In this document: one piece after another, positions 14,948-32,759 of the stretch
Numbering within the stretch: the first letter of the stretch is position 1
How the letters are laid out: the number at the start of each line of letters is the position of its first letter
From: a virus
Strand: one strand, 5' to 3'
Virus record (IMG/VR): IMGVR_UViG_3300020051_001011
Coordinates: 1 to 49,488 of that record
Length of the DNA: 49,488 bases
The notes under the pieces: generated by a model
The model's database searches: none
The model's input: only the letters and a program-made list of their open reading frames with translations
What the model was told of the DNA's origin: nothing
Translations under genes and position numbers: made by a program

Positions 14948-14962
14948 GGGAAGAAATAGATA

Positions 14963-15802: not shown

Positions 15803-15816
15803 CAAGGAAAAAATAA

Positions 15817-17502: not shown

Positions 17503-18201
17503 ATGAAAAAATATTTTATAGACGAAATAGAAACGTTTGCAGTTAATGAAGATTTAAAAGTAAATGTTGAAACATTTGGTCCAAATGAAACTAAAGTTGT
17601 TACTGTAGATAACTTTTATAAAAATCCAGACCAAGTTAGAGATTTAGCATTAAGAATTCCGCCGTCTATAAATGAAAGAATTCGCACAAGGTTACCTGGT
17701 CCCAGGATAAATGCATTTTACTTAATGGATCATATGGGACCTATATTTGACAATATACTACAAACAGTATATCCAGAACAACATTTTCAATTTCCTCCTA
17801 ATCATATTAACGATGTGTTTCGTGATTCTACATTTATTGTTAATATTATGCATACCAAATTTTTAGAGCCGCGCCCGCCGCACATAGATTGCCCATATCC
17901 TACAGCATTTGCAGCAATGGTATTTTTAAATACTCCGGAAGAATGTAAAGGTGGAACAGGATTTTATTCATTTGATGGGCAAACAGGCGGAACTGAATTT
18001 GGCTTATATAAAGCTGATAACGGGAAACCTACCGACATATATGTAAATGGTGATATGGGTGATTGGAAAATGCATCACATGACAGAAATGAAATATAATC
18101 GAATGGTTATATATCAAGCAAACATTTATCATGCAGCATACATAACTGATGACATGTATAATGACGATGTTTATAGATTAAATCAAATGTTTTTTATATA
18201 G
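17503..18201 (+). CDS. DUF6445-like putative Fe(II)/2-oxoglutarate oxygenase (232 aa)
   Basis: The fold and motif layout match the DUF6445 group of 2OG-Fe(II) dioxygenase-like proteins, which often accompany flavin-dependent halogenases in bacteria. The putative iron ligands are H127 and D129 (PPHIDCP) and H210 (NIYHAAY), and R225 (YRLNQMF) could bind 2-oxoglutarate. Between them is a VFLNTPEECKGGTGFYSF segment typical of these enzymes. It starts 100 bp after the chaperone-like gene, beyond a terminator and a late-type promoter, so it begins a new operon with the SGNH-like, oxygenase and FkbM genes. The substrate is unknown. Confidence 0.75.
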   Translation: MKKYFIDEIETFAVNEDLKVNVETFGPNETKVVTVDNFYKNPDQVRDLALRIPPSINERIRTRLPGPRINAFYLMDHMGPIFDNILQTVYPEQHFQFPPNHINDVFRDSTFIVNIMHTKFLEPRPPHIDCPYPTAFAAMVFLNTPEECKGGTGFYSFDGQTGGTEFGLYKADNGKPTDIYVNGDMGDWKMHHMTEMKYNRMVIYQANIYHAAYITDDMYNDDVYRLNQMFFI

Positions 18202-18209
18202 GTCAGTGT

Positions 18210-19115
18210 ATGACTCGATTATTCACATTTGGATGTAGTTTCACTAAGTACAATTGGCCTACTTGGGCAGACTTTATTAATATAGGATGGGATCAATATT
18301 ATAATTGGGGACATCCGGGTATAGGCAATCGTGCAATTGCTGAAAGAATAGCTGAAGCACATGCATTATATAAATTTACTAAAGATGATCTTGTTATTGT
18401 ACAATGGTCGAGTTATGTGCGTCACGATTATGCACGGCCTGATATTCCGTCAGCTGATTGTACAATGTGGAAAACTCGTGGTAACATATTTTCTTCCTGG
18501 AATTCAAAAGTGTTTGATAAAAAATGGATCAATACCTTCTGGAACGAACCTGCCTACTATATACATACATTGAATAATGTTATTTTAGTACAAGAACTAT
18601 TAAAAGGTATCGGTTGCTATTGGTTTATGACAGCATCAACTGATTTACAAGATTATCGATTAAAAGTAGGGCATTTAGACGAAAATTCTGATACAGATAA
18701 TAGTATAAGTCTATGGGATATGGATCCTACATTAACTCCTTATAAAGAACGAATTTGGGAAGATAACAACGAACATTGGTTTCCTCCTATCTTAACAGAA
18801 AAATGGAACAGCCCTGATTTAAATTGGCAGTTTGACATAGACAAACAAGATTTGTCTGCATTAGATTATTTTAAAACATCTGACACTACGTATACTGAAC
18901 CGCATCTAACATCATTACAGTATCATAATTACTTAAAAAATAACGGGATATACGAATTATTTAATATAGATGAAAAGTATATAAACAATAATGAAAGTAT
19001 AGCATTATATGTAGAAGATTTAAAAGAAGAAGCAGGAACTGATATGCAATGTTTTTTTAATCTACTAACTGCAAATGATGTAATCGGTGTTAACAATTTA
19101 TTAAGAGGACGATAA
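18210..19115 (+). CDS. SGNH/GDSL hydrolase-like protein (301 aa)
   Basis: The N-terminal FTFGCSFT motif places a Ser (S10) where the block I nucleophile of SGNH hydrolases sits. A block II-like Gly/Asn segment follows (GHPGIGNRAIAERI, ~residues 33-46) and a DLVIVQWSS segment around residues 60-68 fits the third strand. The C-terminal ~100 residues do not resemble standard lipases. Members of this type recur in marine phages, with unknown substrate; esterase or acyl-transfer activity on a glycan is possible. It lies 8 bp after the DUF6445-like gene and 5 bp before the next oxygenase-like gene, so the three are co-transcribed. Confidence 0.65.
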   Translation: MTRLFTFGCSFTKYNWPTWADFINIGWDQYYNWGHPGIGNRAIAERIAEAHALYKFTKDDLVIVQWSSYVRHDYARPDIPSADCTMWKTRGNIFSSWNSKVFDKKWINTFWNEPAYYIHTLNNVILVQELLKGIGCYWFMTASTDLQDYRLKVGHLDENSDTDNSISLWDMDPTLTPYKERIWEDNNEHWFPPILTEKWNSPDLNWQFDIDKQDLSALDYFKTSDTTYTEPHLTSLQYHNYLKNNGIYELFNIDEKYINNNESIALYVEDLKEEAGTDMQCFFNLLTANDVIGVNNLLRGR

Positions 19116-19120
19116 TTTAC

Positions 19121-19720
19121 ATGGCAGAACCAGCACAAATATTTTCATCATTATTGTTTAGGTCTTTTTTTACTATCGAAAATAATACTCGAGATGCTAT
19201 AATTAACAAATTAAAAAGCAAAAAAGATATTTCATTAATGGAAAATGCACCATTAGGAAATTATACTGATTTTTATAACGATAACAATATAATAGACGAT
19301 CCTCTATTAAAAGATGTAAAAGATTTTATTTTAACTGAAGTGAATTCTGTCAATAACTTTGCTGGATTTTTAGAACCAATTAACTATCTAAATTCTTGGT
19401 TTAGTATTATAGAAAAGTACGGATATCACGAAGCACATACGCATCCTGATTGTTTGTGGAGTGCCGTATATTATCTACAAGCAGAACATACTGATGCACC
19501 TATATGTTTTTTAAATAAAAATATTATCGATACAGGTTGGGGCATGGGAGTTAAATCTATTAAAACTGAGTTTAATTCTAATCAAGTTAGTGTACAACCA
19601 GAAACAGGAATGCTATTAATATTTCCAAGTTATCTTTTGCATAAAGTTGATCAACAAAAAACTGATAATGAACGAATAATGATAGCAATGAATTTTAGCA
19701 ATAAACATCAAGGAGAATAA
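19121..19720 (+). CDS. Putative 2OG-Fe(II) oxygenase (199 aa)
   Basis: The layout matches the PF13759-type putative 2OG-Fe(II) oxygenases common in marine phages. H106 and H108 (HEAHTHPD) and H174 (YLLHKVD) are candidate iron ligands, and R185 (NERIMIAMNF) a candidate 2-oxoglutarate ligand. The core beta-strands SAVYYL and GMLLIFPSYL flank them. The family usually has HxD or HxH as the first pair; here it is HxH followed by PD. An AGGA ribosome site precedes the ATG. It is the third gene of the operon beginning at 17503. Substrate not predictable. Confidence 0.7.
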   Translation: MAEPAQIFSSLLFRSFFTIENNTRDAIINKLKSKKDISLMENAPLGNYTDFYNDNNIIDDPLLKDVKDFILTEVNSVNNFAGFLEPINYLNSWFSIIEKYGYHEAHTHPDCLWSAVYYLQAEHTDAPICFLNKNIIDTGWGMGVKSIKTEFNSNQVSVQPETGMLLIFPSYLLHKVDQQKTDNERIMIAMNFSNKHQGE

Positions 19721-19721
19721 A

Positions 19722-20369
19722 ATGGGACCAGAAGGCAGCAATTTAAAAATATCAGAAAATGGTCAAGATTTTTTTGCACTTGATCGTAGTGCATATACAG
19801 AAAATGGTTTTTTTGTAGATATCGGAGCATCAGATGGTATTACAGCAAGTAATACATTTATCTTAGAAAAATTTTACAAATGGAGAGGTATTTGTGTAGA
19901 TCCAAATCCTGCATTTCAGCAAAGCCTAATGAACTGTAGAGATAACTTTGTTAGTACATTGTGCGTATACAACGAGACTGGTAAAATATTACCTTTTAAG
20001 TTTTGTGTAGATGAAAACCAATTTTACGGATGGAATTTTAGATCAGGATTAGAAAAGCATCTTGGCACTATTGATACAGATATTGATAAAAGTTTTATGA
20101 CTATTAATGTATTGTCTATTACTTTAAATGATTTATTAGCGTTATATCAAGCCCCTACAGACATAAACTATATTAGTATTGACACCGAAGGCAGCGAATA
20201 CGAAATATTAAAAACATTTGATTTTAAAAAATATAATGTAAAATGTTTTACAATTGAACACGAATTTACCAGTAATCGTCAATTGATTCACGATTTAATG
20301 ATTAAAAACGGATACAACCTTTTTACAGATTTTAATACTGAAAACGAAGACTGGTATTTTAAAAGTTAG
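19722..20369 (+). CDS. FkbM-family SAM-dependent methyltransferase (215 aa)
   Basis: The SAM-binding motif I is visible as FFVDIGASDG at residues ~29-38, followed by the acidic ribose-binding CVDPNP. The FkbM-specific segment LNDLLALYQAP followed by ISIDTEGSEYEILK is present at residues ~135-165. FkbM enzymes methylate sugar or polyketide hydroxyls, so an O-methylation of a glycan or small product is likely, inferred from family. The start follows the preceding stop by 1 bp with a GGAG ribosome site. Its last 11 bases overlap the convergent halogenase gene, so no terminator separates them. Confidence 0.85.
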   Translation: MGPEGSNLKISENGQDFFALDRSAYTENGFFVDIGASDGITASNTFILEKFYKWRGICVDPNPAFQQSLMNCRDNFVSTLCVYNETGKILPFKFCVDENQFYGWNFRSGLEKHLGTIDTDIDKSFMTINVLSITLNDLLALYQAPTDINYISIDTEGSEYEILKTFDFKKYNVKCFTIEHEFTSNRQLIHDLMIKNGYNLFTDFNTENEDWYFKS

Positions 20370-21840
20370 GCCAAGTACGCATAGTCCGTAATACTTCTAA
20401 CATTGTTTTATGCGGTATAGTAGTATACGGTGCGTTTGCGTTTTCAGTAATAGTATGCTCTGCTTCTAACTGTTTGTCATACGGCACTCGCATTTTATAT
20501 TCATGTGCAATATTATTAATGTCGAATAACCCTAAACCGTGCATTATTAAAATATAGTGGAAATGACTAAACAATATTTTGTCAGTAACTTTAGAAAAAT
20601 CTTTTTCAGAAGGAAGTGTGTTTTTCCATTTACTAAGATTTGAAGTCAGTGAATCTGGTAATTCAGTTTCTGATACAGCTTTCCAAAAATCTGTATCAGT
20701 TCGATTTCCTAAATAATGTAAAATAACAAAATCTCTTATATTTGTTAATATGTCATTGCAATCTGCATTATAATCTTTTATGCTGGTATCGTTGTAATTT
20801 ATAAGATGTTCAGTTAACAAAAATGCTTGTTGTATTGAGGTTCCGATAGAGCTTGCTTCTAACGGTTCTACAAAACTTGCACTAAGTCCGATTGCAACAC
20901 AATTTTTAATCCATGTATCTTTCAATGCTCCTGGATCAAAATTTATGTGTTTACTAATTTCTATTTCTCGACCAAAATATTTGTTAACTTCGGCATGTGC
21001 TTCGTCTGCTGTGATAAAGTCACTATCAAATATATAACCGTTTCCGTATCGTCCCCACACTGGCAATCTAAACATCCACCCAGCATCCATTCCTTGTGCA
21101 AGTGTCCACAAAGGTATTTCTTCATCTTTTTCAAATTCAATTGGAAAAACTATTGCAGATTTCATTTTTAAGTATTTAGAATATGACTCCCATTCACACC
21201 CTAACTCGTTCATTAATACTCGGCGAAACCCAGTACAATCAATAAAAAAATCTGATTCGTATAATTGTTGTTTGCCTTCTAAACTAACAATTCCATTTTC
21301 GTTTGAATTAACATTAATAATTTCGTCGTCAATGATGTTTATATTATAATCATTACTTAAATTTTCTAAGAATGTATTAAGTTTATTTGTATTAAAATGA
21401 TATTGTTGTACTTGAGTAGATTCTTGTCCTAAGAACCATACATTTGCTCTACTGTGCCAAGCAAGCGGACTTGCTAACTCTTTTGGACTTTTATTTTGAC
21501 TAATTTGATGTCCGTACATATAAGGATAGCCATTGTGAGTAATATTAAATCCATCACCGATACTTTGTAAGTAATCTTCGCCGCCCCAATTTTTAAACAT
21601 AATTCCTGACTTAAAGGTAGCATCTGTTTCTTGTATAAGAGTACGTGCGTTAATATTCATAAATTCCATAAACTCAGACCAGTGTTCTGTTGATCCTTCA
21701 CCGACACCGATTATACCGATATCAGATGATCGTATAACTGTTACATTAATTTCTGGAAATGACTTCTTTAGTATGAGTGCAGATACTAATCCAGCTGTAC
21801 CGCCTCCGAGTACTGTTATACTGTTTATATGTTTATTCAT
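20359..21840 (-). CDS. Flavin-dependent (tryptophan-type) halogenase 1 (493 aa)
   Basis: It belongs to the FAD-dependent tryptophan halogenase family, like the viral halogenase VirX1 of a marine cyanophage. The FAD motif GGGTAG is at residues 12-17. K77 (DATFKSGI) sits where the catalytic lysine of PrnA/RebH is, and E328 (VEPLEAS) corresponds to the catalytic Glu near the halide site. The diagnostic WxWxIP motif is altered to WMFRLP (255-260). An EGSTEHW segment replaces the usual GEGT sequence. It is expected to use FADH2, oxygen and halide to form hypohalous acid; no flavin reductase is seen in the window. It is a lone gene facing the FkbM gene, with a late-type promoter 5 nt before its ATG. 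Confidence 0.88.
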   Translation of the reverse strand: MNKHINSITVLGGGTAGLVSALILKKSFPEINVTVIRSSDIGIIGVGEGSTEHWSEFMEFMNINARTLIQETDATFKSGIMFKNWGGEDYLQSIGDGFNITHNGYPYMYGHQISQNKSPKELASPLAWHSRANVWFLGQESTQVQQYHFNTNKLNTFLENLSNDYNINIIDDEIINVNSNENGIVSLEGKQQLYESDFFIDCTGFRRVLMNELGCEWESYSKYLKMKSAIVFPIEFEKDEEIPLWTLAQGMDAGWMFRLPVWGRYGNGYIFDSDFITADEAHAEVNKYFGREIEISKHINFDPGALKDTWIKNCVAIGLSASFVEPLEASSIGTSIQQAFLLTEHLINYNDTSIKDYNADCNDILTNIRDFVILHYLGNRTDTDFWKAVSETELPDSLTSNLSKWKNTLPSEKDFSKVTDKILFSHFHYILIMHGLGLFDINNIAHEYKMRVPYDKQLEAEHTITENANAPYTTIPHKTMLEVLRTMRTWPNF

Positions 21841-21845
21841 ACTGA

Positions 21846-21853
21846 TATTTATA
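21846..21853 (-). promoter_or_regulatory. Perfect late-promoter octamer directly before halogenase 1
   Basis: Reading the minus strand this is TATAAATA followed by TCAGT and the ATG at 21840. With T4 geometry transcription would start on the A of the start codon. Confidence 0.6.
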
Positions 21854-21888
21854 AGAAGCCATATCTATACAGTGTAAACCCGATACCT

Positions 21889-21896
21889 TATAAATA
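21889..21896 (+). promoter_or_regulatory. Perfect late-promoter octamer upstream of GT9-like gene
   Basis: TATAAATA lies 63 nt before the ATG at 21960, divergent to the late-type promoter of halogenase 1. Confidence 0.5.
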
Positions 21897-21909
21897 ATTT
21901 TGAAAATGC

Positions 21910-21938
21910 TTGCTCTATACATCTAATAGTGTTATAAT
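21910..21938 (+). promoter_or_regulatory. Possible sigma-70 promoter for the GT9-like operon
   Basis: A perfect -10 TATAAT (21933-21938) lies 17 bp after a weak -35 TTGCTC (21910-21915). It would start a transcript about 15 nt before the start codon, ahead of an AAGGAG ribosome site (21949-21954). Confidence 0.45.
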
Positions 21939-21959
21939 GAATAAAATTAAGGAGTTCTA

Positions 21960-22955
21960 ATGTCAAGACCAAAGGCGTATTTTATAAACGGAGGTGCAGG
22001 CCGCGTTATCAGTTCAATTCCTGCATTTGAAAAACTTGCAGAAACTGATGAAGATTTTATTATTGTATGCGAAGGCGGCATGGACTTTTACAAAGGACAT
22101 CCTACACTGCATAATCGTGCATACGATAATTGGCACAAAGGACTGTTTCAAGAACACTTAAAACATCGTGATATTGTAAGCCCAGAACCATATCGTGTTT
22201 GGGAGTATTATAATCAAAAATGTAATCTTGCTCAAGCATTTGACATTGCTATTAACAATAAAGGTGTAAGAGAATTACAAGACCCTAAAATTGTTTTAAA
22301 TCAAATAGAGATGGTATCAGGTTTTAACATTGTACAAGAAGTACGTGCAAAGACTGGTTTTGATAAAGTATTAGTAGTACAGCCGTTTGGTCGCGGAATT
22401 CAAAATATGGGAGAAATGACAATTGATCCTACTGCTCGAAGCATGCATTTAAACAGTGTTATTAATATAGTAAACGATCTTAAAAAAGAATATGCAATTA
22501 TTTTAATGAGCGAATTTCCTGTAGCATTTGAAGAAAAAGATACTGGAAAGTTTCCTGTAGCAATGCCTCAGATTCCAGATCTACGTGTATGGTCGAGTGT
22601 TATAGATTGTTCAGATCACTTTTTAGGAGTAGACAGTGTCGGTCAACATATTGCAAAGAGCTTAGGAAAAACAGCAACGGTGATTACAGGATCTACGTTC
22701 CCTGTCAATATTAGCTACCCTGGTTCGGATACATTTGATATCATTGACATTGGTGAAGGAAAACGTGTATATGATCCTATTCGTCTTACTATGGAAGATG
22801 AAGTTAATAGAGCAAATGATGCTGTAATGGATATGAATAAAGAACAAACACAAGCAGTATTGCATAGTGTAAGAAAACGCTTAGGAAGATCTACAAAATT
22901 TACTGGACAGTATGTTCCTCCTAACGAAGAAGACAATAGTTGCTGCTCAGTATAA
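21960..22955 (+). CDS. GT9 (heptosyltransferase)-like glycosyltransferase (331 aa)
   Basis: The C-terminal half has the segment DHFLGVDSVGQHIAKSLGK (~residues 219-237), which matches the conserved H/G-x-D-S-x-x-x-H-x-A-x-x-L-G motif of GT family 9, the ADP-heptose:LPS heptosyltransferases, followed by a VITGST strand that would contact the nucleotide sugar. The N-terminal Rossmann-like domain begins NGGAGRVISSIPAFEKL, which resembles the G-x-G-D-x-x-x-x-x-P segment of the family without its Asp. The end is short and Cys-containing (DNSCCSV). The link to the ADP-heptose genes on the opposite strand is inferred from context. It heads a + strand operon with its own promoters. Confidence 0.7.
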   Translation: MSRPKAYFINGGAGRVISSIPAFEKLAETDEDFIIVCEGGMDFYKGHPTLHNRAYDNWHKGLFQEHLKHRDIVSPEPYRVWEYYNQKCNLAQAFDIAINNKGVRELQDPKIVLNQIEMVSGFNIVQEVRAKTGFDKVLVVQPFGRGIQNMGEMTIDPTARSMHLNSVINIVNDLKKEYAIILMSEFPVAFEEKDTGKFPVAMPQIPDLRVWSSVIDCSDHFLGVDSVGQHIAKSLGKTATVITGSTFPVNISYPGSDTFDIIDIGEGKRVYDPIRLTMEDEVNRANDAVMDMNKEQTQAVLHSVRKRLGRSTKFTGQYVPPNEEDNSCCSV

Positions 22956-22956
22956 T

Positions 22957-23481
22957 ATGAATTATTTGTCTGAAATATACAGTTCGTTTGCATTAGATTT
23001 GCATTACAATGACTACAGACATATATTAGATTGTTTTTCATTAAATGAAAATAGTCATAGAGACAGCGGCGGATCAACAGTTTATTATAAAGACGAATTT
23101 AAATACCCTTACGAAATTGATACTAATAACAATTATATTAATTTTGTAAAACAGTCATTAACTGTATATCCTTTCCTACAAGATGTAGAGTTTTCTAAGG
23201 CGTGGTGGGTAGATTATCCACTACACTCTTATAACGGATTTCATTCGCACAATCCAGGACCTCAACTAACTTCTGTACTTTTTCTAACAACATCAGAAGT
23301 TGATGATTATAATCCGCATGAAGGATTTTTATATTCTTTAAATAATGGCGATTATAATGAGTATCGTCCAGTTGCTGGAAATCTTCATATATTTGATGGC
23401 ACTGTGTGGCACGGAACATATCCAACATTACAGCCGAGAAAAGTGTTTGTGTGTGATTTTACATATAGGTTAGCAGTATGA
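22957..23481 (+). CDS. Putative 2OG-Fe(II) oxygenase, tandem paralogue A (174 aa)
   Basis: Start chosen at the ATG at 22957, 1 bp after the preceding stop; an upstream in-frame ATG at 22912 lies inside the glycosyltransferase gene and adds residues absent from the paralogue. H96 and H98 (GFHSHNP), H152 (VWHGTYP) and R161 (PRKVFVCDF) form an H-x-H...H...R pattern of 2OG-Fe(II) oxygenases. The neighbouring gene at 23478 is a clear paralogue (shared R/S-GGST-x-x-Y, WW-V/I-DYP, AGN, HG-x-Y and RKVFV segments). The function and substrate are unknown. No strong ribosome site is visible, consistent with translational coupling. Confidence 0.65.
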   Translation: MNYLSEIYSSFALDLHYNDYRHILDCFSLNENSHRDSGGSTVYYKDEFKYPYEIDTNNNYINFVKQSLTVYPFLQDVEFSKAWWVDYPLHSYNGFHSHNPGPQLTSVLFLTTSEVDDYNPHEGFLYSLNNGDYNEYRPVAGNLHIFDGTVWHGTYPTLQPRKVFVCDFTYRLAV

Positions 23482-24008
23482 ATATAGATTTACCTTTTTT
23501 TGATCAAACTAATTTTCATTGGATAACTGAAACATATTATCCAGAATATGAAAGATTTTTAAATTTATATAATAAAGATGTGTCTTGTCAGCATCATTTA
23601 GAACGTGGTGGATCAACAATGTTTTATAAATGGGATTACGGATACCCCACTGAAGTTGATCCTGCCAAAGATTACCTTACCTTTCTAAGAAATAGTGTAA
23701 GTACTACATTACAAGATGCAACATATGCAAGTAGTTGGTGGATTGATTATCCGCCAGGATCGTATTCTGTGGCACATCAACATATACAAAGTCGTAGATT
23801 TAGTGCAATATTATTTTTATCAGATTATGAATGGATTAGAAAATGGCCACATGCTGGAAATTTATATTCTATGTCGAATGCGATTGGATATAAAGAATGG
23901 GAACCAAAAGCAGGCAATGTAATAATAATGGACGGCGGGATACATCACGGATCTTATCCTGCAATTAACGAACGTAAAGTTTTTGTAATAGATTTTGAAT
24001 ATAATTAG
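23478..24008 (+). CDS. Putative 2OG-Fe(II) oxygenase, tandem paralogue B (176 aa)
   Basis: The product is paralogous to the preceding gene and overlaps its stop by 4 bp (ATGA). H100 and H102 (VAHQHIQ), H156/H157 (GIHHGSYP) and R166 (ERKVFVIDF) give an oxygenase-type ligand set. The strand AGNVIIMDG before the last His is typical of the cupin-like double-stranded beta-helix fold. Two copies side by side suggest sequential or alternative oxidation of related positions; this is inference. A 2OG oxygenase assignment rests on motif layout only. Confidence 0.65.
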   Translation: MNIDLPFFDQTNFHWITETYYPEYERFLNLYNKDVSCQHHLERGGSTMFYKWDYGYPTEVDPAKDYLTFLRNSVSTTLQDATYASSWWIDYPPGSYSVAHQHIQSRRFSAILFLSDYEWIRKWPHAGNLYSMSNAIGYKEWEPKAGNVIIMDGGIHHGSYPAINERKVFVIDFEYN

Positions 24009-24016
24009 GAGATAAT

Positions 24017-25837
24017 ATGGCACAGTGGATAGCAGCAATAGCAAGGGGCCATAATTCAGGCGTTTGCTTATTAAAAGATGGCGAAATTGTTTTTGCAATC
24101 GAAGAAGAACGATTAAGTAGACATAAGTACGACGGCGGCCCTTACGCATCAATGCTTAAAATATTAGATTACACTGATAAATTAGATTACTTGTTTATCG
24201 CACATACACAGCCTTTAAAAGAAACAGCAGGAACTGTTGATTTTACAGGTGACGATGTTTATACAGGATTAGCTCGTAAGTTGGGATTAATTTCTCGAAC
24301 AGAAGATCCATATAATCATCCACAAGTAATTGATTTAGCACACATGCATCATAAACTTCATGCAGCATGTGCATTTTATAGATCAGGTTTTGATAATGCA
24401 GTGGCACTTATTGTAGATGGTGCAGGAACATTTATTCCTATGCAAATGGGTGAAACTACTGAAATGACCTGGGAATTAGAATCTATCTTTACTTGTAGAT
24501 ACCCTGCTAATTTTAAAACAGTGTATAAACATCAAGGAGGAAGAGGCCCTTGGCCTGCTGCACATATTGAAGATATGCCAAGTGATAATTTTGGCGAAAC
24601 TGGCGAAACTCACGAGTTAATAATAGACGACACAGCAGGCATTACAAAGGCATATGAAGCGGTTACGCAATACTGCGGTTGGTCGCCGATTGAGGCTGGT
24701 AAGACTATGGGACTGTTCCCGTACGGAGAGAAAAACGACAATGTTCCTGCTATTTACTCAGACGGCAATGGCGGCATGTGGCGTACAACTGATAGGAATT
24801 TAGTTATTCCTACATATCCAAACGGCGCTGTTATTAACGAAGGTCGTTACGAATATCTACTTACACCTACTGACATTCAAGACAAAGACGAATTAACGTA
24901 TTTGCAGAATCGTCGTGATATGGCATACGCAGTACAAACACAAAGTCAATCAGAAGTACTGCGTTTAATTCGAAAAGCAGTTGCAGATACAGGAATTAAA
25001 AACATTGTATTAAGCGGAGGTTATGGCTTAAATTGTGTTGCTAACTACTGGTACTTAAAAGAATTAGAAGGCGAAGGCATAAACTTTTATGTTGAACCAA
25101 TAAGTAGCGATGCAGGTACGTGCATTGGCGCAGCATTATTTGGCTATCATATGTTAACTAACGATGACACTCAGCGAGCATTTGCAGACAGCTTATATTT
25201 AGGCCCGCAATACAACTATACTGACGAAGAAATTAATACGTTAGCAGAAAAATATAATGCAGAATTATCTGATATTACTAACACAGAAGTCATTAATCTT
25301 ATGACTGGTAAAACAAACGGTGAAAGAAATATTGTTACTTTGTTCCAAGGTAAATCAGAAAATGGTCCTCGTGCATTAGGAAATAGAAGTATCATGTATG
25401 ACCCAACTGATCCTAATGGTAAAGACTTTGTTAATAAAGTTAAACGTAGAGAGTACTTCCGTCCGTTTGCAGGATCTATTTTGCATGAGCATGCACATGA
25501 ATGGTTTGATATGCGCGGCCTAGAAGAATCTCCGCATATGATGTATGCTATGAATTGTCAAGAAGGTATTGCAGAAAAAATTCCAAGCATTATTCACGTA
25601 GACGGTACATGTCGTATCCAAACAGTCAAGCGTGAACAAAATCCGCATTACTACGATTTGATTAAAGAACTTTATAAGCAAACAGGAGTACCGATTGTAT
25701 TTAATACAAGTTTTAACTTAGGAGGCGAGCCATTAGTTGAGACATTAGATGATGCATTTAGAACATTAGCAAGTAGCGATATTGAATATTTGTATCTACC
25801 TGAGTATAACAAACTGGTAACTATTAAAAATGATTAA
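24017..25837 (+). CDS. Carbamoyltransferase, NodU/CmcH/TobZ family (606 aa)
   Basis: It is full-length for the family (about 550-620 residues). The N-terminal Kae1-like domain begins with HNSGVCLL (12-19), has EEERLSRHKYDG (29-40), the metal-binding HHKLH (111-115) and DGAGT (134-138). The C-terminal YrdC-like domain carries GPRALGNRS (450-458), REYFRPFAGSIL and FNTSFNLGGEPLV. These enzymes move a carbamoyl group from carbamoyl phosphate through carbamoyladenylate to a hydroxyl of a sugar or antibiotic. An AGGAG ribosome site lies 8 bp upstream. The stop overlaps the start of the next oxygenase by 8 bp. Here it probably decorates a sugar product; acceptor unknown. Confidence 0.9.
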   Translation: MAQWIAAIARGHNSGVCLLKDGEIVFAIEEERLSRHKYDGGPYASMLKILDYTDKLDYLFIAHTQPLKETAGTVDFTGDDVYTGLARKLGLISRTEDPYNHPQVIDLAHMHHKLHAACAFYRSGFDNAVALIVDGAGTFIPMQMGETTEMTWELESIFTCRYPANFKTVYKHQGGRGPWPAAHIEDMPSDNFGETGETHELIIDDTAGITKAYEAVTQYCGWSPIEAGKTMGLFPYGEKNDNVPAIYSDGNGGMWRTTDRNLVIPTYPNGAVINEGRYEYLLTPTDIQDKDELTYLQNRRDMAYAVQTQSQSEVLRLIRKAVADTGIKNIVLSGGYGLNCVANYWYLKELEGEGINFYVEPISSDAGTCIGAALFGYHMLTNDDTQRAFADSLYLGPQYNYTDEEINTLAEKYNAELSDITNTEVINLMTGKTNGERNIVTLFQGKSENGPRALGNRSIMYDPTDPNGKDFVNKVKRREYFRPFAGSILHEHAHEWFDMRGLEESPHMMYAMNCQEGIAEKIPSIIHVDGTCRIQTVKREQNPHYYDLIKELYKQTGVPIVFNTSFNLGGEPLVETLDDAFRTLASSDIEYLYLPEYNKLVTIKND

Positions 25838-26405
25838 TGAGATCTTCTCAACTCCAATTTACGAATGCAAGATGCCAGACCACGAAAGGCTTAAAGAAGC
25901 CTTTCTTCCATTTTCGGTAGACGATGCTAATTTTGCAACTCCTGTAGGATGGAGTTGCAATGCAGATTCTACATTTGGCAACGAACCGATTGCAGGAATG
26001 CCGTGGGATAAGTTTTTTAATAGTGTGTTACCGTTAGTTGAAAAATATGTAAACGACATTGGCGGAATAGGACAATATTCCATTGGATGCCAGGCTTGGA
26101 TGAATAGATACAACTATGGACAACATCAAGAAGTGCATGCCCACTCTAATGGATCAAATGTTATTAGTTGTGCGTATATGTTAGAAAAACCAGAAAATAG
26201 TGGTGATTTTGTTTTCTATAAATCAAGCAATGACTTTTTTCAAAAGGTTAATTTACAAACAGAAATATATGGTAACAAGTATGTGCCAGAAATGACAGAA
26301 GGAAGTGTTGTATTGTTTCCGAGTAGCTTGGATCATTATGTAACGTATAATCAAACCCAAGCTACAAGAGTTACAATTAGTGCAAACTTTGCAATAACTT
26401 TTTAA
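25830..26405 (+). CDS. Putative 2OG-Fe(II) oxygenase (191 aa)
   Basis: PF13759-type protein beginning with the typical I-F-S-T-P-I-Y segment. H103 and H105 (EVHAHSN), H169 (SLDHYVT) and R180 (ATRVTISANF) are candidate iron and 2-oxoglutarate ligands, with strands SCAYML and GSVVLFPSS between them. It overlaps the carbamoyltransferase stop by 8 bp, so translation is coupled. Its stop overlaps by 4 bp the stop of the convergent gmhB-like gene. Similar proteins are widespread in marine T4-like phages without assigned substrate. Confidence 0.75.
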   Translation: MINEIFSTPIYECKMPDHERLKEAFLPFSVDDANFATPVGWSCNADSTFGNEPIAGMPWDKFFNSVLPLVEKYVNDIGGIGQYSIGCQAWMNRYNYGQHQEVHAHSNGSNVISCAYMLEKPENSGDFVFYKSSNDFFQKVNLQTEIYGNKYVPEMTEGSVVLFPSSLDHYVTYNQTQATRVTISANFAITF

Positions 26406-27049
26406 TTTTTCTTTTCCAACCAATCAACAAACTGAGAAAGATCGTCAAAAATGATGGTCTTTTTCTTTATCTTTTGATTACTGAATTTGTTTAGTTCTTT
26501 GATAGTTTCTTCACCGTGTCCTGTGCGTACAAGGACTGGTACTGCGCTCATTTTAAATGCAGCTTTAAGATCGGATATTTTATCGCCTACAAAGTATCCG
26601 TGTTTGAATTTAATGTATTTGAACTCGTCCTGGCATCGTTTGAACATTCCAGTATTGGGTTTTGCAAAATTGTCTTCTCGCAAACTTGTAGTGCTATAGT
26701 ATAATGCATCAATACTTGGACAACCTGCTTCGCCTAACAATTGAAACATATACTCATGAACTTTGTCAACATCTGACTCTGTGTATAGCCCTTTACCAAT
26801 TCCGCCTTGATTTGTAATAATGGCAATTTTGTGACCCATTCGTCTTAGTTTAGCAATTGCTTCTAAGCTACCGTCTATAGGTTTGAAATCTTCAGGACGA
26901 TACGTGTAAGTACCTCTGTCGACATTAATTACACCGTCTCGATCTAACCCTACAACACACTTAGGAGCAATGTTATGTATATTGTCATATACAGGAACAT
27001 ACTCTTGTTTCTTAACTTCGTTGCTCCATACTATGTTATAATTACTCAT
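26402..27049 (-). CDS. gmhB: D-glycero-D-manno-heptose-1,7-bisphosphate phosphatase-like HAD protein (215 aa)
   Basis: HAD phosphatase of the histidinol-phosphate/GmhB type. The nucleophile motif is LDRDGVIN (35-42, D36 and D38), motif II is TNQGGIG (79-85), then K130-P, and motif IV is GDKISDL (155-161). In E. coli GmhB a loop with Cys and His binds structural zinc; here the corresponding stretch (about 115-130) reads ALYYSTTSLREDNFAK and has no such ligands. A ~25-residue N-terminal extension is present. It removes the C7 phosphate in the ADP-heptose route by family knowledge. The start overlaps the cupin stop (ATGA). It is the last gene of the hldE operon, supporting the role. Confidence 0.8.
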   Translation of the reverse strand: MSNYNIVWSNEVKKQEYVPVYDNIHNIAPKCVVGLDRDGVINVDRGTYTYRPEDFKPIDGSLEAIAKLRRMGHKIAIITNQGGIGKGLYTESDVDKVHEYMFQLLGEAGCPSIDALYYSTTSLREDNFAKPNTGMFKRCQDEFKYIKFKHGYFVGDKISDLKAAFKMSAVPVLVRTGHGEETIKELNKFSNQKIKKKTIIFDDLSQFVDWLEKKN

Positions 27050-27438
27050 TTGCTACTCGCAGTCTGGCTGTCTCCTGGGCCGATACGAAAATTATCTTCT
27101 ACGCTATCTGGAGTACTCACTTCGGTTAGACTCGATTCATCTTGCATTGCTACTAATTGGTGCGGCATTAATGGCGGGTTATGCCAAACATCGCCTTCAT
27201 TTAATTCTTTTTCATATAGCATCGAATCAGCAGTATCAATATAACGTACTTTAAATTTTCCGCTATTTATAAACCATGTTTCGTCTTTTTCTTTGTGAAA
27301 ATGCATGCTGGTCTTCATGCCTTCTTTATTAAAAAACATAATCTTTCCACAGTACTTGTCGTTAGTAGCCCAAATTAATTCGTAGCCCCAGCCTTTTTGT
27401 ACTGCGCCGCTTAACCGTGTTGGCTGTTTATTTTCCAT
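27046..27438 (-). CDS. Cupin-domain sugar-pathway protein (130 aa)
   Basis: Small single cupin. Motif 1 is HFHKEKDETWFINSG (H46, H48, E53) and motif 2 has PPLMPHQLVA (H93), so a metal site is complete. The opening GWGYELIWAT resembles the cupin of mannose-6-phosphate isomerase-like proteins. The C-terminal TPDSVEDNFRIG segment is also typical of this group. It lies between hldD-like (11 bp overlap) and gmhB-like (4 bp overlap) genes, so a sugar phosphate or nucleotide-sugar isomerase or binding role is likely, but its exact reaction is not known. Confidence 0.8.
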   Translation of the reverse strand: MENKQPTRLSGAVQKGWGYELIWATNDKYCGKIMFFNKEGMKTSMHFHKEKDETWFINSGKFKVRYIDTADSMLYEKELNEGDVWHNPPLMPHQLVAMQDESSLTEVSTPDSVEDNFRIGPGDSQTASSK

Positions 27439-28237
27439 TTATAAAATCCTTTGGTGTTGTGAAGTTAATGTTTACTATATTACTTAAACGTTCTATGTTT
27501 GCACATGTGTATTCTTGATATTGTCCTTTAAGATTATCAGGCATTGGAATATATTCAATCTTAGCTTTAAATCGTTTTGCAACTAATTCTGCAATAGTTT
27601 GAAAACTTGTTGCAACTCCGGTACCGATATTAAATATACCTTTCTCAGATGTTGTGAGCATGTAACGATGTATGTTACAACAATCACCTACATATATAAA
27701 GTCTCTTAGATACTTGTCACTATTTTCAAACAGTGTAATAACGCCTTCTTCTTTTGCTTGTTTAAAGAACTTGGTTATAGGGCTTGCTTGATTTCCTTTG
27801 TGATCTTCATACGGTCCGTATACATTAAAGTAACGAAATCCTTGTACTATAATGTCGTGCTTTTGTTGCATAACCCAACGGTCAAACAAGTACTTGCTTG
27901 TTGCATAATAGCTCTGGGGCTGCTTTGGTGCGTCTTCTCTAAAATCAGTGTTAGAGCCGTATACACTTGCGCTCGAAGCGTATTGTAGATTTACTCCGTT
28001 GGTGTTACACTCATTAAACAACCACTTTGAAAATTCATAATTTTGCAACATTACTTTATCTATGTCGCGTTCAGTAGTTGCACTAATTGCTCCTAAATGT
28101 ATAACCCAATCATATTGAGATACATCAGGCAACGCGGCTGGATTCCATTCATATCCGAATAACTCATTATCTTTGTCAAGAAATGGCGCTAAATTTTTAC
28201 CAATAAATCCTTCGTGACCTGTTATTAATATTTTCAT
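27428..28237 (-). CDS. hldD: ADP-L-glycero-D-manno-heptose 6-epimerase-like SDR (269 aa)
   Basis: Extended short-chain dehydrogenase with GHEGFIG (7-13) for NAD(P) binding and the catalytic YATSK (111-115), preceded by SSASVYG. HldD-type features are FRYFNVYGPYEDHKG, the IFNIGTG strand, and IEYIPMPDNLKGQYQEYTCA, which closely follows the HldD signature YIPFPxxLKGxYQ. It is shorter than E. coli HldD (310 residues), mostly by a compact N-terminal half. The likely reaction is C6 epimerization of ADP-heptose. It overlaps the halogenase 2 stop by 4 bp. Confidence 0.85.
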   Translation of the reverse strand: MKILITGHEGFIGKNLAPFLDKDNELFGYEWNPAALPDVSQYDWVIHLGAISATTERDIDKVMLQNYEFSKWLFNECNTNGVNLQYASSASVYGSNTDFREDAPKQPQSYYATSKYLFDRWVMQQKHDIIVQGFRYFNVYGPYEDHKGNQASPITKFFKQAKEEGVITLFENSDKYLRDFIYVGDCCNIHRYMLTTSEKGIFNIGTGVATSFQTIAELVAKRFKAKIEYIPMPDNLKGQYQEYTCANIERLSNIVNINFTTPKDFINGK

Positions 28238-29670
28238 TTAATTGCCTGTAAGTGAGAAATAATATATTGACTATTATCAACGTCGGAAATAGTCTCGCTC
28301 CAATTTGATAATATTTCATTTGCAATATCATCATCGATGTTTTTATTTTTTCCTATATTCTTTTCAAATTGCAGCAGCCAACAAATCCAATTTGCGCCGC
28401 CAAACAAATAACCCTTTCCGTTATAGTTAATAGGTGTTCCGGCTTCTATTATATTTTTGTAATACAAATATGTTTCTGACGGAATGATATTTTCTTTAAC
28501 ATGATTCCAAAAAGGTGTATTTTTATCTGTATAAATGTAATGCATATTAACAAAATCAATAGTGTCTTCATATAGCGCATTCATTGTACTATTAAATATT
28601 TCGATATCATATTCATTATAATATCCTGTATTAATACTATGCGTCAAATATACAATAGCATTAGTAATAGATCCTATACCAGTAGATTCTAACGGTTCAA
28701 TAAATCCGCCACTTAGGCCTATAGCAACAACATTACCGTCCCACATATTTTTGTTATAATACGGGGTCCAGTCTATTACTTTTAAATCATCTGGAGTGAT
28801 TCTATCATTCCAATGCTTGCATAGATATTGTTTCGCCTCGTCAATGCTTGTTATACTTCTATTGAACACTAAACCAGTTCCTGTTCGCGATCGGACAGGA
28901 ATTTTCCAAATCCATCCATGGTCGACTGCTGGACATTCTACATAAGGCATACATTCGACTTCTGCATCTATGTAAGGAACATGACCGGCTACAGCAGTGT
29001 CACAAAACAGTCTATTAGTAAGATCGGTTCGTTGTGGACTATGTTGTAGTACTTGATTAAATCCTGTACAATCTACAAACAAGTCAGAATTAATTGTATC
29101 ACCGTTTTTAAGAGTAAGATGATTAATGATATTGTCTGTACGATTAATAGCAACTACTTCAGATTTAATTAAAGTAATACGTGATAATATTTTTTCTTGT
29201 AACCAAATAACTAACTTACTGCAATCGATGTGCATTGCATATGCAGAATTCAAATTATTAATGTCTACTTTGTTTTCTAAACTTATATTAAAAAACATCA
29301 TTAATTCGTTAATTTTTTCTTGTTCAATATATGTTAACGCTTCGTAGACATTGGCATCGTATTTGCTATAATCCATATTTAATGTAAACGGATGCCATAC
29401 TAAGTTTTTATCGCCATTAAATTGAGGGAACAAAATGCCTGCTTTGTATGTTGCATCGATAGCATCAAACCATTCTTCTTGTTTAAATCCGCATTCTGCT
29501 AAGAAATGTTTAAAACCTAATAACGTGCCTTCTCCAACTCCAACAGGCGTTCCAACTTCTTTGTCAACAACAGTTATATTACAGGCTGTATTCTTTAAAA
29601 GATAAGCAGCAGTTAGCCATCCACTTGTTCCGCCACCTACTATTGTTATATTGTTTACTGTGTTATGCAT
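28234..29670 (-). CDS. Flavin-dependent (tryptophan-type) halogenase 2 (478 aa)
   Basis: Second member of the FAD-dependent halogenase family in this window. GGGTSG (12-17) binds FAD, GVGEGT (44-49) follows, K76 (DATYKAGI) and E328 (IEPLESTG) are the catalytic pair, and the WxWxIP signature is intact as WIWKIP (253-258). It is clearly divergent from halogenase 1, so the two are unlikely to be a recent duplicate and may differ in substrate. It is embedded between hldE and hldD with 8-bp and 4-bp overlaps, tying its expression to heptose synthesis. Substrate could be an indole, phenol or other electron-rich group; not predictable from sequence. Confidence 0.88.
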   Translation of the reverse strand: MHNTVNNITIVGGGTSGWLTAAYLLKNTACNITVVDKEVGTPVGVGEGTLLGFKHFLAECGFKQEEWFDAIDATYKAGILFPQFNGDKNLVWHPFTLNMDYSKYDANVYEALTYIEQEKINELMMFFNISLENKVDINNLNSAYAMHIDCSKLVIWLQEKILSRITLIKSEVVAINRTDNIINHLTLKNGDTINSDLFVDCTGFNQVLQHSPQRTDLTNRLFCDTAVAGHVPYIDAEVECMPYVECPAVDHGWIWKIPVRSRTGTGLVFNRSITSIDEAKQYLCKHWNDRITPDDLKVIDWTPYYNKNMWDGNVVAIGLSGGFIEPLESTGIGSITNAIVYLTHSINTGYYNEYDIEIFNSTMNALYEDTIDFVNMHYIYTDKNTPFWNHVKENIIPSETYLYYKNIIEAGTPINYNGKGYLFGGANWICWLLQFEKNIGKNKNIDDDIANEILSNWSETISDVDNSQYIISHLQAIK

Positions 29671-30805
29671 TGCTTGCCTCTATAATTCTTGTTGTACTGT
29701 AACCTTCTACTGTAGGCACAATATGCACAGGTGCTAAGTCATGCCCTACTACAGTTTCTACAGTATAATCTCCGCCCTTAACAATAAGAGCAGGGTTTAA
29801 TCTTTTAATTAAGTTATACGGAGTGTCGTCGTTAAACACAAACACTTCATCTACCCAAGGCAATGCTTCAAGTTGCTCTATTCTAGTTTGTTCATCATTA
29901 ATCGGTCGACTGTCGCCTTTAAGCCTTTTAACACTTGCGTCACTGTTAATACCTACTACAAGTTTAGTACCTAAACTGCGAGCTTGTTTTAATAGTTCAA
30001 AATGTCCTTTGTGTAGTATATCAAATACGCCATTAGTAAACACTATAGATTGTTCAAAATCTTTTTTACTTAAGACATATGTACCTGCATGTTTTACACT
30101 TTCAGTTGCTGCGTCAACAGCCATTTGCAAACAAGTTGCGTAATTTTTTCCAATGTCAATACCGTATACAAATGCTGCTAAGAAACAATCACCTGCTCCA
30201 GTAACATCTGATACTTCGACTTGATCTACAATTGCGGTATAATCAGCATTGTCAATCTTAGCATGTACTGCGTCATGTGCGTGAGTTGTAATAATGTTAC
30301 CTAGCCAAGTATCAAATCCTAACTCACGATATTCTTTGTTATTAGGTTTAACTAACCATGCGCCTTTATAATAACTAGAATGACGTTTAGGATCTACAAT
30401 AACTTTACAGCCAAAACTATTAAGATGTTCTATAATTTCTAAAGAACGATCTAACACACCTTTGTTATAGTCACTGAGAATAACATAGTTGTACTGCGAG
30501 AAATCAGTTGCTCGTATAGTGTCTAGCACTACATTGCCGTTGGCGTGTTTGTCATCATCAATGCGTGTGATATAATGACCGTCGCAAATTACTCTAGTTT
30601 TGATACTGCTAGCATTATCTGTTTTAAACAGTTCAACATCAACACCTAAACTTTTAAGATTTTCATATACTAGACCTGCGCCGCCTATTGTTTCAACTTC
30701 ACGCAGATACTTAACTACAGGGACAGGAGCCTCTGGACTTAATCTTGTGCTGGTTCCGTAGATGTATTTGTCGATGATTATATCACCAAGAACTAAAACT
30801 TTCAT
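29663..30805 (-). CDS. hldE: Bifunctional heptose-7-phosphate kinase/heptose-1-phosphate adenylyltransferase, compact HldE-like (380 aa)
   Basis: Residues 1-~248 form a PfkB-type sugar kinase: GDIIIDKYIYG at the start, the substrate segment LSPEAPVP, GGAGLVYENLKSLG, VDPKR, KPNNKE and the anion-hole/catalytic DVTGAGD (200-206). Residues ~252-380 form a RfaE-type nucleotidyltransferase: FTNGVFDILHKGH (256-268) with the HxGH-like site, RLKGDSRP, KGGDY and GYSTTRII (368-375). E. coli HldE has 477 residues; here the kinase half is about 70-90 residues shorter. It should phosphorylate heptose-7-phosphate at C1 and then add AMP. It is the first gene of the - strand operon, with a consensus promoter 7-35 bp upstream. 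Confidence 0.88.
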   Translation of the reverse strand: MKVLVLGDIIIDKYIYGTSTRLSPEAPVPVVKYLREVETIGGAGLVYENLKSLGVDVELFKTDNASSIKTRVICDGHYITRIDDDKHANGNVVLDTIRATDFSQYNYVILSDYNKGVLDRSLEIIEHLNSFGCKVIVDPKRHSSYYKGAWLVKPNNKEYRELGFDTWLGNIITTHAHDAVHAKIDNADYTAIVDQVEVSDVTGAGDCFLAAFVYGIDIGKNYATCLQMAVDAATESVKHAGTYVLSKKDFEQSIVFTNGVFDILHKGHFELLKQARSLGTKLVVGINSDASVKRLKGDSRPINDEQTRIEQLEALPWVDEVFVFNDDTPYNLIKRLNPALIVKGGDYTVETVVGHDLAPVHIVPTVEGYSTTRIIEASNA

Positions 30806-30811
30806 GTTTAA

Positions 30812-30840
30812 ATTATACTATCTCTTAAGTTATTTGTCAA
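30812..30840 (-). promoter_or_regulatory. Perfect-consensus sigma-70 promoter for the hldE operon
   Basis: On the minus strand TTGACA (30840-30835) and TATAAT (30817-30812) are separated by exactly 17 bp. It sits between hldE and the upstream Nudix gene, with the -35 box overlapping the last codons of the latter. Confidence 0.85.
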
Positions 30841-31270
30841 GTAAATCAATTACTTTAAACACTGTTTCTAATTTGCTTAAATTAACTTTATTTTGAAGTG
30901 TGTTTTTTAGTCCGTGGTGTAAAGGTTTTGGCCATTTACCGAATTCAACCCATGCATACCCGTCATGCTCTTCGTTGAGCAAAGGCATAAACTCTTGATC
31001 GACTACACTTAGGTATGTATGAAAATGGAATCGGCTATCATTACTAATAAACGTTTCTAACGGCATTGTTTTTATAATAGAGATTTCACCAATCTCTTCA
31101 AAGATCTCACGTTTAAGACCTTCCCATGGTGATTCGCATCCTTCATTAGTGCCACCGACAAGCCCCCACAAATTACCAGAGCGTCCTTTTACCCTATGTA
31201 AGAATAAAAAACGTTTAGTATTAAGGGCATATACGATTGCACCACTGCAAATAATCTTATCAGTCTTCAT
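30830..31270 (-). CDS. Nudix hydrolase (146 aa)
   Basis: The start is placed at the ATG at 31270, 13 bp after the gp15 stop; a GTG at 31321 in the same frame would overlap gp15 by 38 bp. The Nudix box GX5EX7REUXEEXG is visible at residues 40-61 (G40, E46, R54-E55, E58-E59, G61). The segment VKGRSGNLWGLVGG before it is typical of nucleoside-diphosphate-X hydrolases. The substrate could be a nucleotide sugar, capped nucleotide or oxidised nucleotide. Placed at the junction of virion genes and cassette; on the same strand as gp15 and possibly read from its transcript. Confidence 0.85.
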   Translation of the reverse strand: MKTDKIICSGAIVYALNTKRFLFLHRVKGRSGNLWGLVGGTNEGCESPWEGLKREIFEEIGEISIIKTMPLETFISNDSRFHFHTYLSVVDQEFMPLLNEEHDGYAWVEFGKWPKPLHHGLKNTLQNKVNLSKLETVFKVIDLLDK

Positions 31271-31283
31271 ACTAATAATTATC

Positions 31284-32759
31284 TTAGTATGCGAGTCTCC
31301 AAGTGCCGTTTGGATATTCACCGTCGTATGCTAATATCCATTCGCCGTTTTCAAATTTATATTGTTTGCCAGTATTAAGATTAGAAGTATATATAACTGT
31401 GTCGTCTTGAGCGCTAGCATCAAATACTACAATCCAGTTAGTGCCATCCCATTCAATAATGTCGTTAGCGCCTGCTACAAAATCAGAACCGTCTGCATTT
31501 TTCCAAGCATCTGGTCCGTCGTATGCAAAATTATCAGGGGTTTCGTACCCTGCATCTTGCCCGACGTTTTCACTATTATTAATATCAAGAAGTATTAATA
31601 TACGAGGATTACTTGATTTTAAATCTGTAGGATTAGTTTTATACGGATTAATAATATAATCAATTTTGTTACGATCACCATTCGGGCCACTAATAACTGT
31701 ATCTGCAGGTAGCGTGTCAGCGTCCCATACAATTGATAATTCGTATGGATCTAATGGATTAACTACAACAGTGCCCACAACTTCGTTATCTAAATCTCTG
31801 CGATTAAGTCTTAATTCAGTAACGCCTGCATCAAATACAAATGGCATAGATGTTAAATACCCTGGCCAAGTTTCTGCGCCTACTATGCCTTTTCTGACTA
31901 ATTTAGCAGTTGTTCCCATTACTAGCAATCCGTAGTTGTCATGACCGGACGAAATTGCAATGTCAACTCCATTAATAAATGTACCTTCATTGTCGATTTT
32001 TTCTTGTATTTCGCCTGTATTTGCAACTACTACTTGAGTTCTAATATCAGCTGCTGCTACTCGTGATAAATCAAGATCAATCTCACCTCTGGTATCGTTA
32101 AAGATGCTATTAATGACTTGCGTAACAACTCCGAGACGTTTAACTTTAACAGGTGGACTAATATAGATTGGAGTTGTAAAAGTTAATGTAGCAATATCAA
32201 TGTCGCTCTCAGTTCCTGTAGGTATCGATCTACTACTAAAAACTGTCCCAGTTAAATTTACTACACTTAAACTTGTCCAGTCGACATAGTTATCAGTTGT
32301 TTGAATTTCTAAACTTGGATTAAACAACATTAATATTTGTTCTAATATTTGTAGCTTTTGATCTGTATTTGAACTCCATATATCTACATTTACTGTTAGT
32401 GTATACGGAGTAGGCATTAGACGTTCTACTGTATAATTCTTACCTTCGGTATTTAAATACTCTTGACCATTAGCATCGTATGCACGTTCTCTAATGTTCA
32501 TTTTATTAACATAACTACTATCGCTTAGGCGATTAGTATCAAGTTCCAGACCAGTGATATACACCGCCATGCGAGGCGCACTTGGAATTTTGTTTTCGCT
32601 GTTTTCTCTAATAATGTTAGCAACTTGACGGGTCAAATCTCCATACATTACTGGAATCTGTGTCAAGTTGCCTTTGCCATCTTTGTAACTAAAGTTACTC
32701 ATCAAGCGAACTATTTGTGTAATATATCTGCGGATTTGACCGTCGTAAAAATGTTGCAT
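31284..32759 (-). CDS. gp15: Tail sheath stabiliser/completion protein, gp15 homologue (491 aa)
   Basis: The N-terminus FYDGQIRRY matches the start of T4 gp15 (FYNSSFRRY), followed by IPVMYGD-x-x-R, LMPTPYTLTVNVDIW, EQILMLFNPSLEIQTTDNY and the TFTTPIYISPPVKVK strand, all in the order of T4-like gp15. T4 gp15 has 272 residues; the extra ~220 are a C-terminal extension whose last ~70 residues contain two W/Y-x-x-DG-x-x-W-like motifs (EWDGTNWIVVFD and FENGEWILAYDG). The start overlaps the upstream stop by one base (TAATG). gp15 caps the contracted sheath and connects to the neck. Confidence 0.85.
   Translation of the reverse strand: MQHFYDGQIRRYITQIVRLMSNFSYKDGKGNLTQIPVMYGDLTRQVANIIRENSENKIPSAPRMAVYITGLELDTNRLSDSSYVNKMNIRERAYDANGQEYLNTEGKNYTVERLMPTPYTLTVNVDIWSSNTDQKLQILEQILMLFNPSLEIQTTDNYVDWTSLSVVNLTGTVFSSRSIPTGTESDIDIATLTFTTPIYISPPVKVKRLGVVTQVINSIFNDTRGEIDLDLSRVAAADIRTQVVVANTGEIQEKIDNEGTFINGVDIAISSGHDNYGLLVMGTTAKLVRKGIVGAETWPGYLTSMPFVFDAGVTELRLNRRDLDNEVVGTVVVNPLDPYELSIVWDADTLPADTVISGPNGDRNKIDYIINPYKTNPTDLKSSNPRILILLDINNSENVGQDAGYETPDNFAYDGPDAWKNADGSDFVAGANDIIEWDGTNWIVVFDASAQDDTVIYTSNLNTGKQYKFENGEWILAYDGEYPNGTWRLAY

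Follow-up and report, generated by a model that had tools for sequence, protein, structure and literature searches.

Organization of the cassette

We analyzed a 49,488-base stretch of viral DNA (the window; IMG/VR virus record IMGVR_UViG_3300020051_001011). A longer contig from this virus, of 87.6 kb, contains the window with 99.99% identity over the full window length. Its source is an uncultured marine T4-like phage, and T4-like genes for sheath, tube, gp13, gp15 and terminase are present. Between tail-fiber and neck genes lies a cassette of 16 consecutive open reading frames (ORFs; 17503–31321), annotated using Pfam, PHROG and NCBIfam with curated cut-offs, together with a PDB profile search. 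It joins enzymes of ADP-heptose synthesis to a glycosyltransferase family 9 (GT9)-like protein, a carbamoyltransferase, halogenases and oxygenases. The original prediction had listed these enzymes at 17503–31270, and an ORF check together with the three libraries upheld the list, except for the SGNH-like protein discussed below.

The neck-side part encodes, on the minus strand, counterparts of the bacterial ADP-L-glycero-D-manno-heptose pathway (GmhA, HldE, GmhB, HldD): a compact HldE combining heptose-7-phosphate kinase and heptose-1-phosphate adenylyltransferase (29663–30805), an HldD-like ADP-heptose 6-epimerase (27428–28237) and a GmhB-like HAD phosphatase (26402–27049), all with catalytic motifs. 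HldE matches Pfam CTP_transf_like (1e-21) and PfkB (1e-13), NCBIfam rfaE_dom_I and rfaE_dom_II, and PDB entries 4e84 and 5x9q; the window protein and 80/80 relatives carry the GAGD motif of PfkB kinases and the HxGH motif of adenylyltransferases in one chain. The HldD-like protein matches TIGR02197 (3.4e-73) and is closest to the structure 1eq2 (6e-49), with YxxxK and FNVYG-HKG motifs visible in the alignment and YxxxK kept in 70/70 relatives. For the GmhB-like protein, matched by NCBIfam PRK08942 (8e-43) and by GmhB in the PDB (8e-24), alignment and motif counts revealed the HAD catalytic motifs. The closest structures are those expected for the HldE domains, HldD and GmhB.

The GT9-like protein (21960–22955, plus strand) has no Pfam hit, but it shares its fold with the GT9 heptosyltransferases. 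Foldseek analysis of its AlphaFold model (mean pLDDT 85.8) gave GT9 members for all of the best 28 PDB hits (3tov, WaaC, WaaF, TibC; E = 1.5e-9 to 2e-6), bearing out the predicted GT9-like transferase at the level of fold. Heptosyl transfer is, somewhat more likely than not, its activity. Downstream lies a carbamoyltransferase of the NodU/TobZ family (24017–25837, plus strand), with both Pfam domains above cut-off (PF16861, 3e-58; PF02543, 8e-26) and TobZ and GdmN as PDB matches.

Two flavin-dependent halogenases are encoded on the minus strand, at 20359–21840 (halogenase 1; PF04820, 1.9e-89; PDB tryptophan halogenases) and at 28234–29670, between hldD and hldE (halogenase 2; PF04820, 1.2e-79; PDB matches including VirX1). 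They score 301 and 269 bits against a PF04820 cut-off of 21. The GGG FAD-binding motif and the catalytic Lys occur in 51/51 halogenase relatives, as do EPLE and the catalytic Lys of halogenase 1; the further motif is WxFxLP in halogenase 1 and WxWxIP in halogenase 2. Among HldE loci, a halogenase in the position of halogenase 2 is a feature of the window virus alone (0/54 others). A search of viral contigs with the window's halogenase 1 recovered only itself, which reflects a limit of the scan rather than true absence, as relatives with 50–55% identity surround the GT9-like gene in related contigs. Three related loci (L133, L134 and L136) hold halogenases of both types within a single cassette. 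VirX1, the flavin halogenase of cyanophage Syn10 (PDB 6qgm), belongs to the same family; halogenase 2 and the Syn10 gene share ~30% identity, and the Syn10 locus, unlike the window cassette, has no annotated heptose genes.

The remaining cassette genes are an FkbM methyltransferase (19722–20369, plus; PF05050, 1.8e-16), a Nudix hydrolase (30830–31321, minus; PF00293, 2.9e-13), whose gene has an ATG start at 31270 and a GTG start at 31321, an SGNH-like protein and five oxygenase-like proteins. Of the five, two are clear 2-oxoglutarate (2OG)-Fe(II) oxygenases (19121–19720, PF13759, 3.5e-22; 25830–26405, PF13759, 3.5e-15; both plus). A third, the DUF6445 protein (17503–18201, plus; PF20043, 3.7e-18), is a probable 2OG-Fe(II) oxygenase, since it shows the HxD..H..R pattern of such enzymes, with H127, (D129), H210 and R225 conserved in the family alignment; its profile matched nothing in the PDB. 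The other two, both on the plus strand, match only weakly (22912–23481, phrog_81 at 5.6e-8 and Pfam at 0.0087; 23478–24008, Pfam at 0.0027, under cut-off). The SGNH label (18210–19115, plus) found no backing in Pfam, PHROG, NCBIfam or PDB profiles and derives from a conserved N-terminal GCS motif (GCSF).

On the fiber side, the cassette is preceded on the plus strand by a 3722-amino-acid (aa) putative tail fiber rich in Thr (11.6%) and Ser (7.5%), with carbohydrate-binding module 5/12 repeats (573–11741; Pfam CBM_5_12, 1.9e-27), three tandem glycine-rich fiber-like proteins of 279, 279 and 278 aa (14108–16653; the first matching phrog_4205 and Gly_rich_2) and a tail fiber assembly chaperone-like protein (16692–17402; Phage_tail_APC, phrog_9740/4912). 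The glycine-rich triplet also lies upstream of the GT9-like gene in relatives. A gp15-like tail sheath stabilizer (31284–32759, minus; PF16724, 8.6e-27) forms the neck-side boundary, near which a 321-aa Ala/Glu-rich low-complexity protein without family match is encoded (34314–35279).

Linkage and selection in related phages

Two scans, centered on HldE (L004–L082) or on the GT9-like gene (L133–L211), supplied the related loci as their top 80 hits each, and denominators include only loci with enough flank. Of the genes around HldE, HldD is found at up to 0.9 kb (68/69 loci), the cupin at up to 1.5 kb (55/58) and the GmhB-like gene at up to 4 kb (37/48); Nudix and gp15 genes are present in 74/79 and 68/73. 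In the GT9-centered set, a fiber gene lies within 1.2 kb upstream in 58/62 loci and the carbamoyltransferase follows in 71/71, while halogenase (46/49), DUF6445 (47/49), SGNH-like (45/49) and GmhB-like (45/49) genes fall within 8.5 kb. HldE and HldD are more distant in this set (~20 kb in the clearest case) and come after a giant gene whose product is of the 2000-aa class. Among 11 GT9 contigs tested, nine had HldE/HldD matches, eight of them strong with both genes; all eight contigs that reach the neck side carry HldE and HldD, and by contig coordinates the other three end earlier. The cassette is thus a unit with two fixed ends, fibers–GT9–carbamoyltransferase and HldE–HldD–cupin–neck, and variable cargo between them. 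Scattering of these genes in related phages, the outcome that the original prediction had named as counting against it, is not what we found: the heptose genes form a linked, conserved unit.

The giant T/S/G-rich protein (for example L127:10541–16585) sits inside the cassette of many relatives, is not in the window and has no Pfam match; its S-CAM1 homolog is annotated as a virion structural protein.

Strong matches to the GT9-like protein were found in 23 cultured or single-cell phage records, representing only ~8 distinct phages, and comparison by accession showed that all 23 also have HldE, which matches just 45 of 50,697 phage records. We regard this co-occurrence as the best evidence for use of the product of HldE by the GT9-like protein. 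More distant GT9-like relatives (28%) occur in Vibrio and Aeromonas phages of ~78 kb.

To measure selection, dN/dS (the ratio of nonsynonymous to synonymous substitution rates) was calculated by the Nei-Gojobori method for pairs 80–98% identical in protein. Medians over eleven cassette genes were 0.045–0.119, compared with 0.087 for the virion gene gp13, and the cassette is under strong purifying selection. Sullivan et al. (2010) left open whether the cyanophage lipopolysaccharide (LPS) genes are functional or filler (PMC3037559), and decaying cargo that lengthens the genome for headful packaging would agree with the variation in cargo between the cassette ends. The gp13-like dN/dS disfavors this, at least in the window lineage, and with catalytic motifs kept and gene order conserved we regard filler as highly improbable.

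Counterparts in cyanophages

Among cultured phages, the terminase large subunit (TerL) of the window is closest to that of the Pseudomonas jumbo phage PA5oct and its relatives (54%), and psbA was not found in 24 contigs of the window virus and related viruses. On both grounds a cyanobacterial host for the window virus was rejected. Contigs binned to Neomarinimicrobiota or Rhodobacteraceae metagenome-assembled genomes (MAGs; L226, L227, L250) are phage DNA with the cassette, and bin-derived host labels are therefore unreliable here.

The original prediction knew of no other case of this gene combination. However, the Synechococcus phage S-SSM7 has it in the same place, with HldE split, in the order fibers, GT9-like, carbamoyltransferase, 2OG, a second carbamoyltransferase-like gene, halogenase, adenylyltransferase, kinase, HAD-type, cupin, HldD and gp13. 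P-SSM2 and S-CAM1 carry this unit in the same place without a local halogenase, and uncultured relatives (L089, L091, L093, L094) have GT9–carbamoyltransferase–halogenase–HldE. Most such genes were listed as 'LPS genes', plus prnA, by Sullivan et al. (PMC3037559). This 'LPS' cluster (T4-GC 302–308, prnA) and the window cassette share the GT9-like, carbamoyltransferase, adenylyltransferase, kinase, HAD-type, cupin and HldD genes and adjoin fiber and neck genes in both cases; S-SSM7 also has a halogenase beside the adenylyltransferase. The window differs in its distinct lineage, in having HldE as one fused gene and in its two halogenases and FkbM and SGNH-like genes. Its phosphatase is a GmhB-like HAD protein, whereas that of the cyanophages is a ~110-aa protein; that the two phage groups fill this slot with different HAD-type proteins is what retention of the pathway would predict.

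For cyanophages, single genes and some of their co-occurrence had thus already been published (PMC3037559; PMC7378029), and phage halogenases were known from VirX1. The present analysis adds a second phage lineage, an architecture with two fixed ends, the GT9 fold together with the link to HldE, evidence for selection and the hypothesis on the cupin.

The GmhA step and the cupin

The original prediction that only GmhA is missing holds for the window. GmhA (SIS_2, PF13580) is also absent from the 87.6-kb contig and from all 20 records searched, including the complete genomes of the cultured relatives P-SSM2, S-SSM7, P-TIM68 and S-CAM1. The cyanophage 'phosphoheptose isomerase' (T4-GC306) was rejected as a GmhA, being ~110 aa long with an N-terminal HAD-type DxD and no Pfam match; genes so annotated (phrog_1238, T4-GC306; L085:13113–13457 and L083:17536–17871) have no SIS domain and are probably misannotated.

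A single-domain metal cupin (27046–27438, minus strand) co-occurs with HldE in both phage groups, and its HxH metal ligands are conserved in 66/68 relatives. GmhA and phosphomannose isomerase alike convert a 2-ketose phosphate to an aldose phosphate of manno configuration, and this likeness in chemistry makes a cupin a reasonable replacement. Members of the family match Lyx_isomer (lyxose isomerase; 23/26) and MannoseP_isomer (mannose-6-phosphate isomerase; 21/26) weakly, with oxalate decarboxylase scoring above the phosphomannose isomerase and lyxose isomerase families. Small phosphomannose isomerases from archaea were among the matches of the fold search, as were oxalate decarboxylases and quercetinases. 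Since generic cupins top the PDB sequence search, we offer replacement of GmhA by the cupin as a tentative hypothesis, with the odds somewhat against it.

A cellular-genome locus (L245) groups adenylyltransferase, cupin, alcohol dehydrogenase, thiamine pyrophosphate enzyme, kinase, HldD-like and small HAD-type genes and resembles the P-TIM68 phage cluster; it is labeled as a Bifidobacterium breve MAG, a species assignment that looks wrong. The P-TIM68 'transketolase' was not adopted as supplier of sedoheptulose 7-phosphate, since the gene resembling it in the cellular cluster is E1 dehydrogenase-like.

Proposed function

We propose, with a probability of about 0.5, that the cassette is a glycan-building and tailoring unit of marine T4-like phages, by which heptose is made, transferred, carbamoylated and tailored. 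Heptose 7-phosphate would be supplied by host GmhA, or by the phage cupin if this interconverts ketose and aldose sugar phosphates. ADP-heptose would then be formed by HldE, HldD and the GmhB-like phosphatase, a step that we consider likely, and the GT9-like enzyme would move the heptose onto an acceptor. Tailoring of the product would fall to the carbamoyltransferase and, in phages that have them, to the FkbM, SGNH-like, 2OG and halogenase enzymes. By analogy with WapO, a precedent for heptose carbamoylation (PMC8005017), a sugar may be the substrate of the carbamoyltransferase, for which we see even chances.

The leading candidate acceptors are the phage's own Ser/Thr-rich fiber proteins, in analogy with the autotransporter heptosyltransferase TibC, which heptosylates autotransporter adhesins (PMC4358343); the 3722-aa fiber protein would be one such candidate. 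Heptosyltransferases of this autotransporter type (BAHT) modify Ser residues of proteins and have an iron finger of four Cys; the comparison with them covered the GT9 fold. An acceptor on virion fibers is possible at slightly less than even chances, and one at the host surface is rather unlikely. No phage-encoded protein heptosyltransferase was found in the open-licence PMC papers searched.

The main rival is that the cassette remodels the surface glycan of the infected host (LPS or capsule), for example against superinfection, the heptose and the carbamoyl, methyl and acyl-type groups ending on a host polysaccharide. The related cyanophage genes were named LPS genes (PMC3037559), carbamoyl-heptose is a feature of the LPS core in Pseudomonas (PMC8005017), the GT9 members WaaC and WaaF build LPS cores, and FkbM and carbamoyltransferases are common glycan tailors. 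Nevertheless, the genes lie inside the fiber–neck block, and the Pfam scan of the cassette revealed no flippase, polymerase or ligase. Moreover, marine Synechococcus WH8102, the recorded host of cyanophage Sf-FS3, which has both GT9-like and HldE genes, makes LPS without heptose (PMC4515613). This disfavors topping up or repair of a host LPS core, while a newly added decoration would not be affected. Both the remodeling and a host polysaccharide as its end point appear unlikely, though clearly ahead of the other alternatives.

A small-molecule product, such as a halogenated carbamoylated heptoside made from ADP-heptose and either released at lysis or active within the cell, would suit the halogenases, since tryptophan-type enzymes belong to secondary metabolism, and the carbamoyltransferase, whose relatives TobZ, GdmN and the novobiocin enzyme serve antibiotic pathways. 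We consider it quite improbable, given the tight linkage to fiber genes and a Pfam scan of the cassette that detected neither a scaffold builder (nonribosomal peptide synthetase, polyketide synthase or similar) nor a transporter.

Several points weigh against the proposed glycan-building unit. Directly observed are the gene set and its linkage, the GT9 fold, purifying selection and, for most enzymes, catalytic motifs; every substrate, the sequence of the reactions and the acceptor are inferred, the fiber acceptor from gene position and analogy. Since the phages counted for linkage are relatives of one another, the counts lack independence. None of the three heptose enzymes reaches its curated NCBIfam cut-off (HldE 268 bits against 521, with domain I 161 against 345 and domain II 162 against 181.5; HldD-like 246.6 against 274.6; GmhB-like 146 against 178), so they are diverged forms; the zinc loop CxH...CxC of E. 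coli GmhB occurs in 0/60 GmhB-like relatives. Relative to the bacterial pathway, the phage version therefore has a compact kinase, a GmhB without the zinc motif and no GmhA. In the GT9-like protein, the residue after the GAG motif is Arg15, invariant in 21 relatives, with the position matched by motif rather than by superposition. This is the site of the catalytic Asp of WaaC. TibC has its catalytic Asp110 there (PMC4358343). This Asp-to-Arg change leaves heptosyl transfer unproven. Finally, halogenases act on aromatic rings and fit heptose poorly as a substrate; they may act on fiber Trp/Tyr or on something else.

The fullest form of the proposal, phage-encoded heptosylation of virion proteins by a self-sufficient pathway, with the cupin in place of GmhA, a GT9-like enzyme with a changed active site, carbamoylated and tailored fibers and halogenated aromatics, is doubtful, with odds well against it. 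If the cupin is a sedoheptulose-7-phosphate isomerase, the pathway would be closed and a new enzyme type would be added for that step. The link between cassette and fibers makes virions a direct place to look for heptose. That the genes are functional in this second and separate phage group is supported by hundreds of related loci and by dN/dS values on a par with a virion gene.

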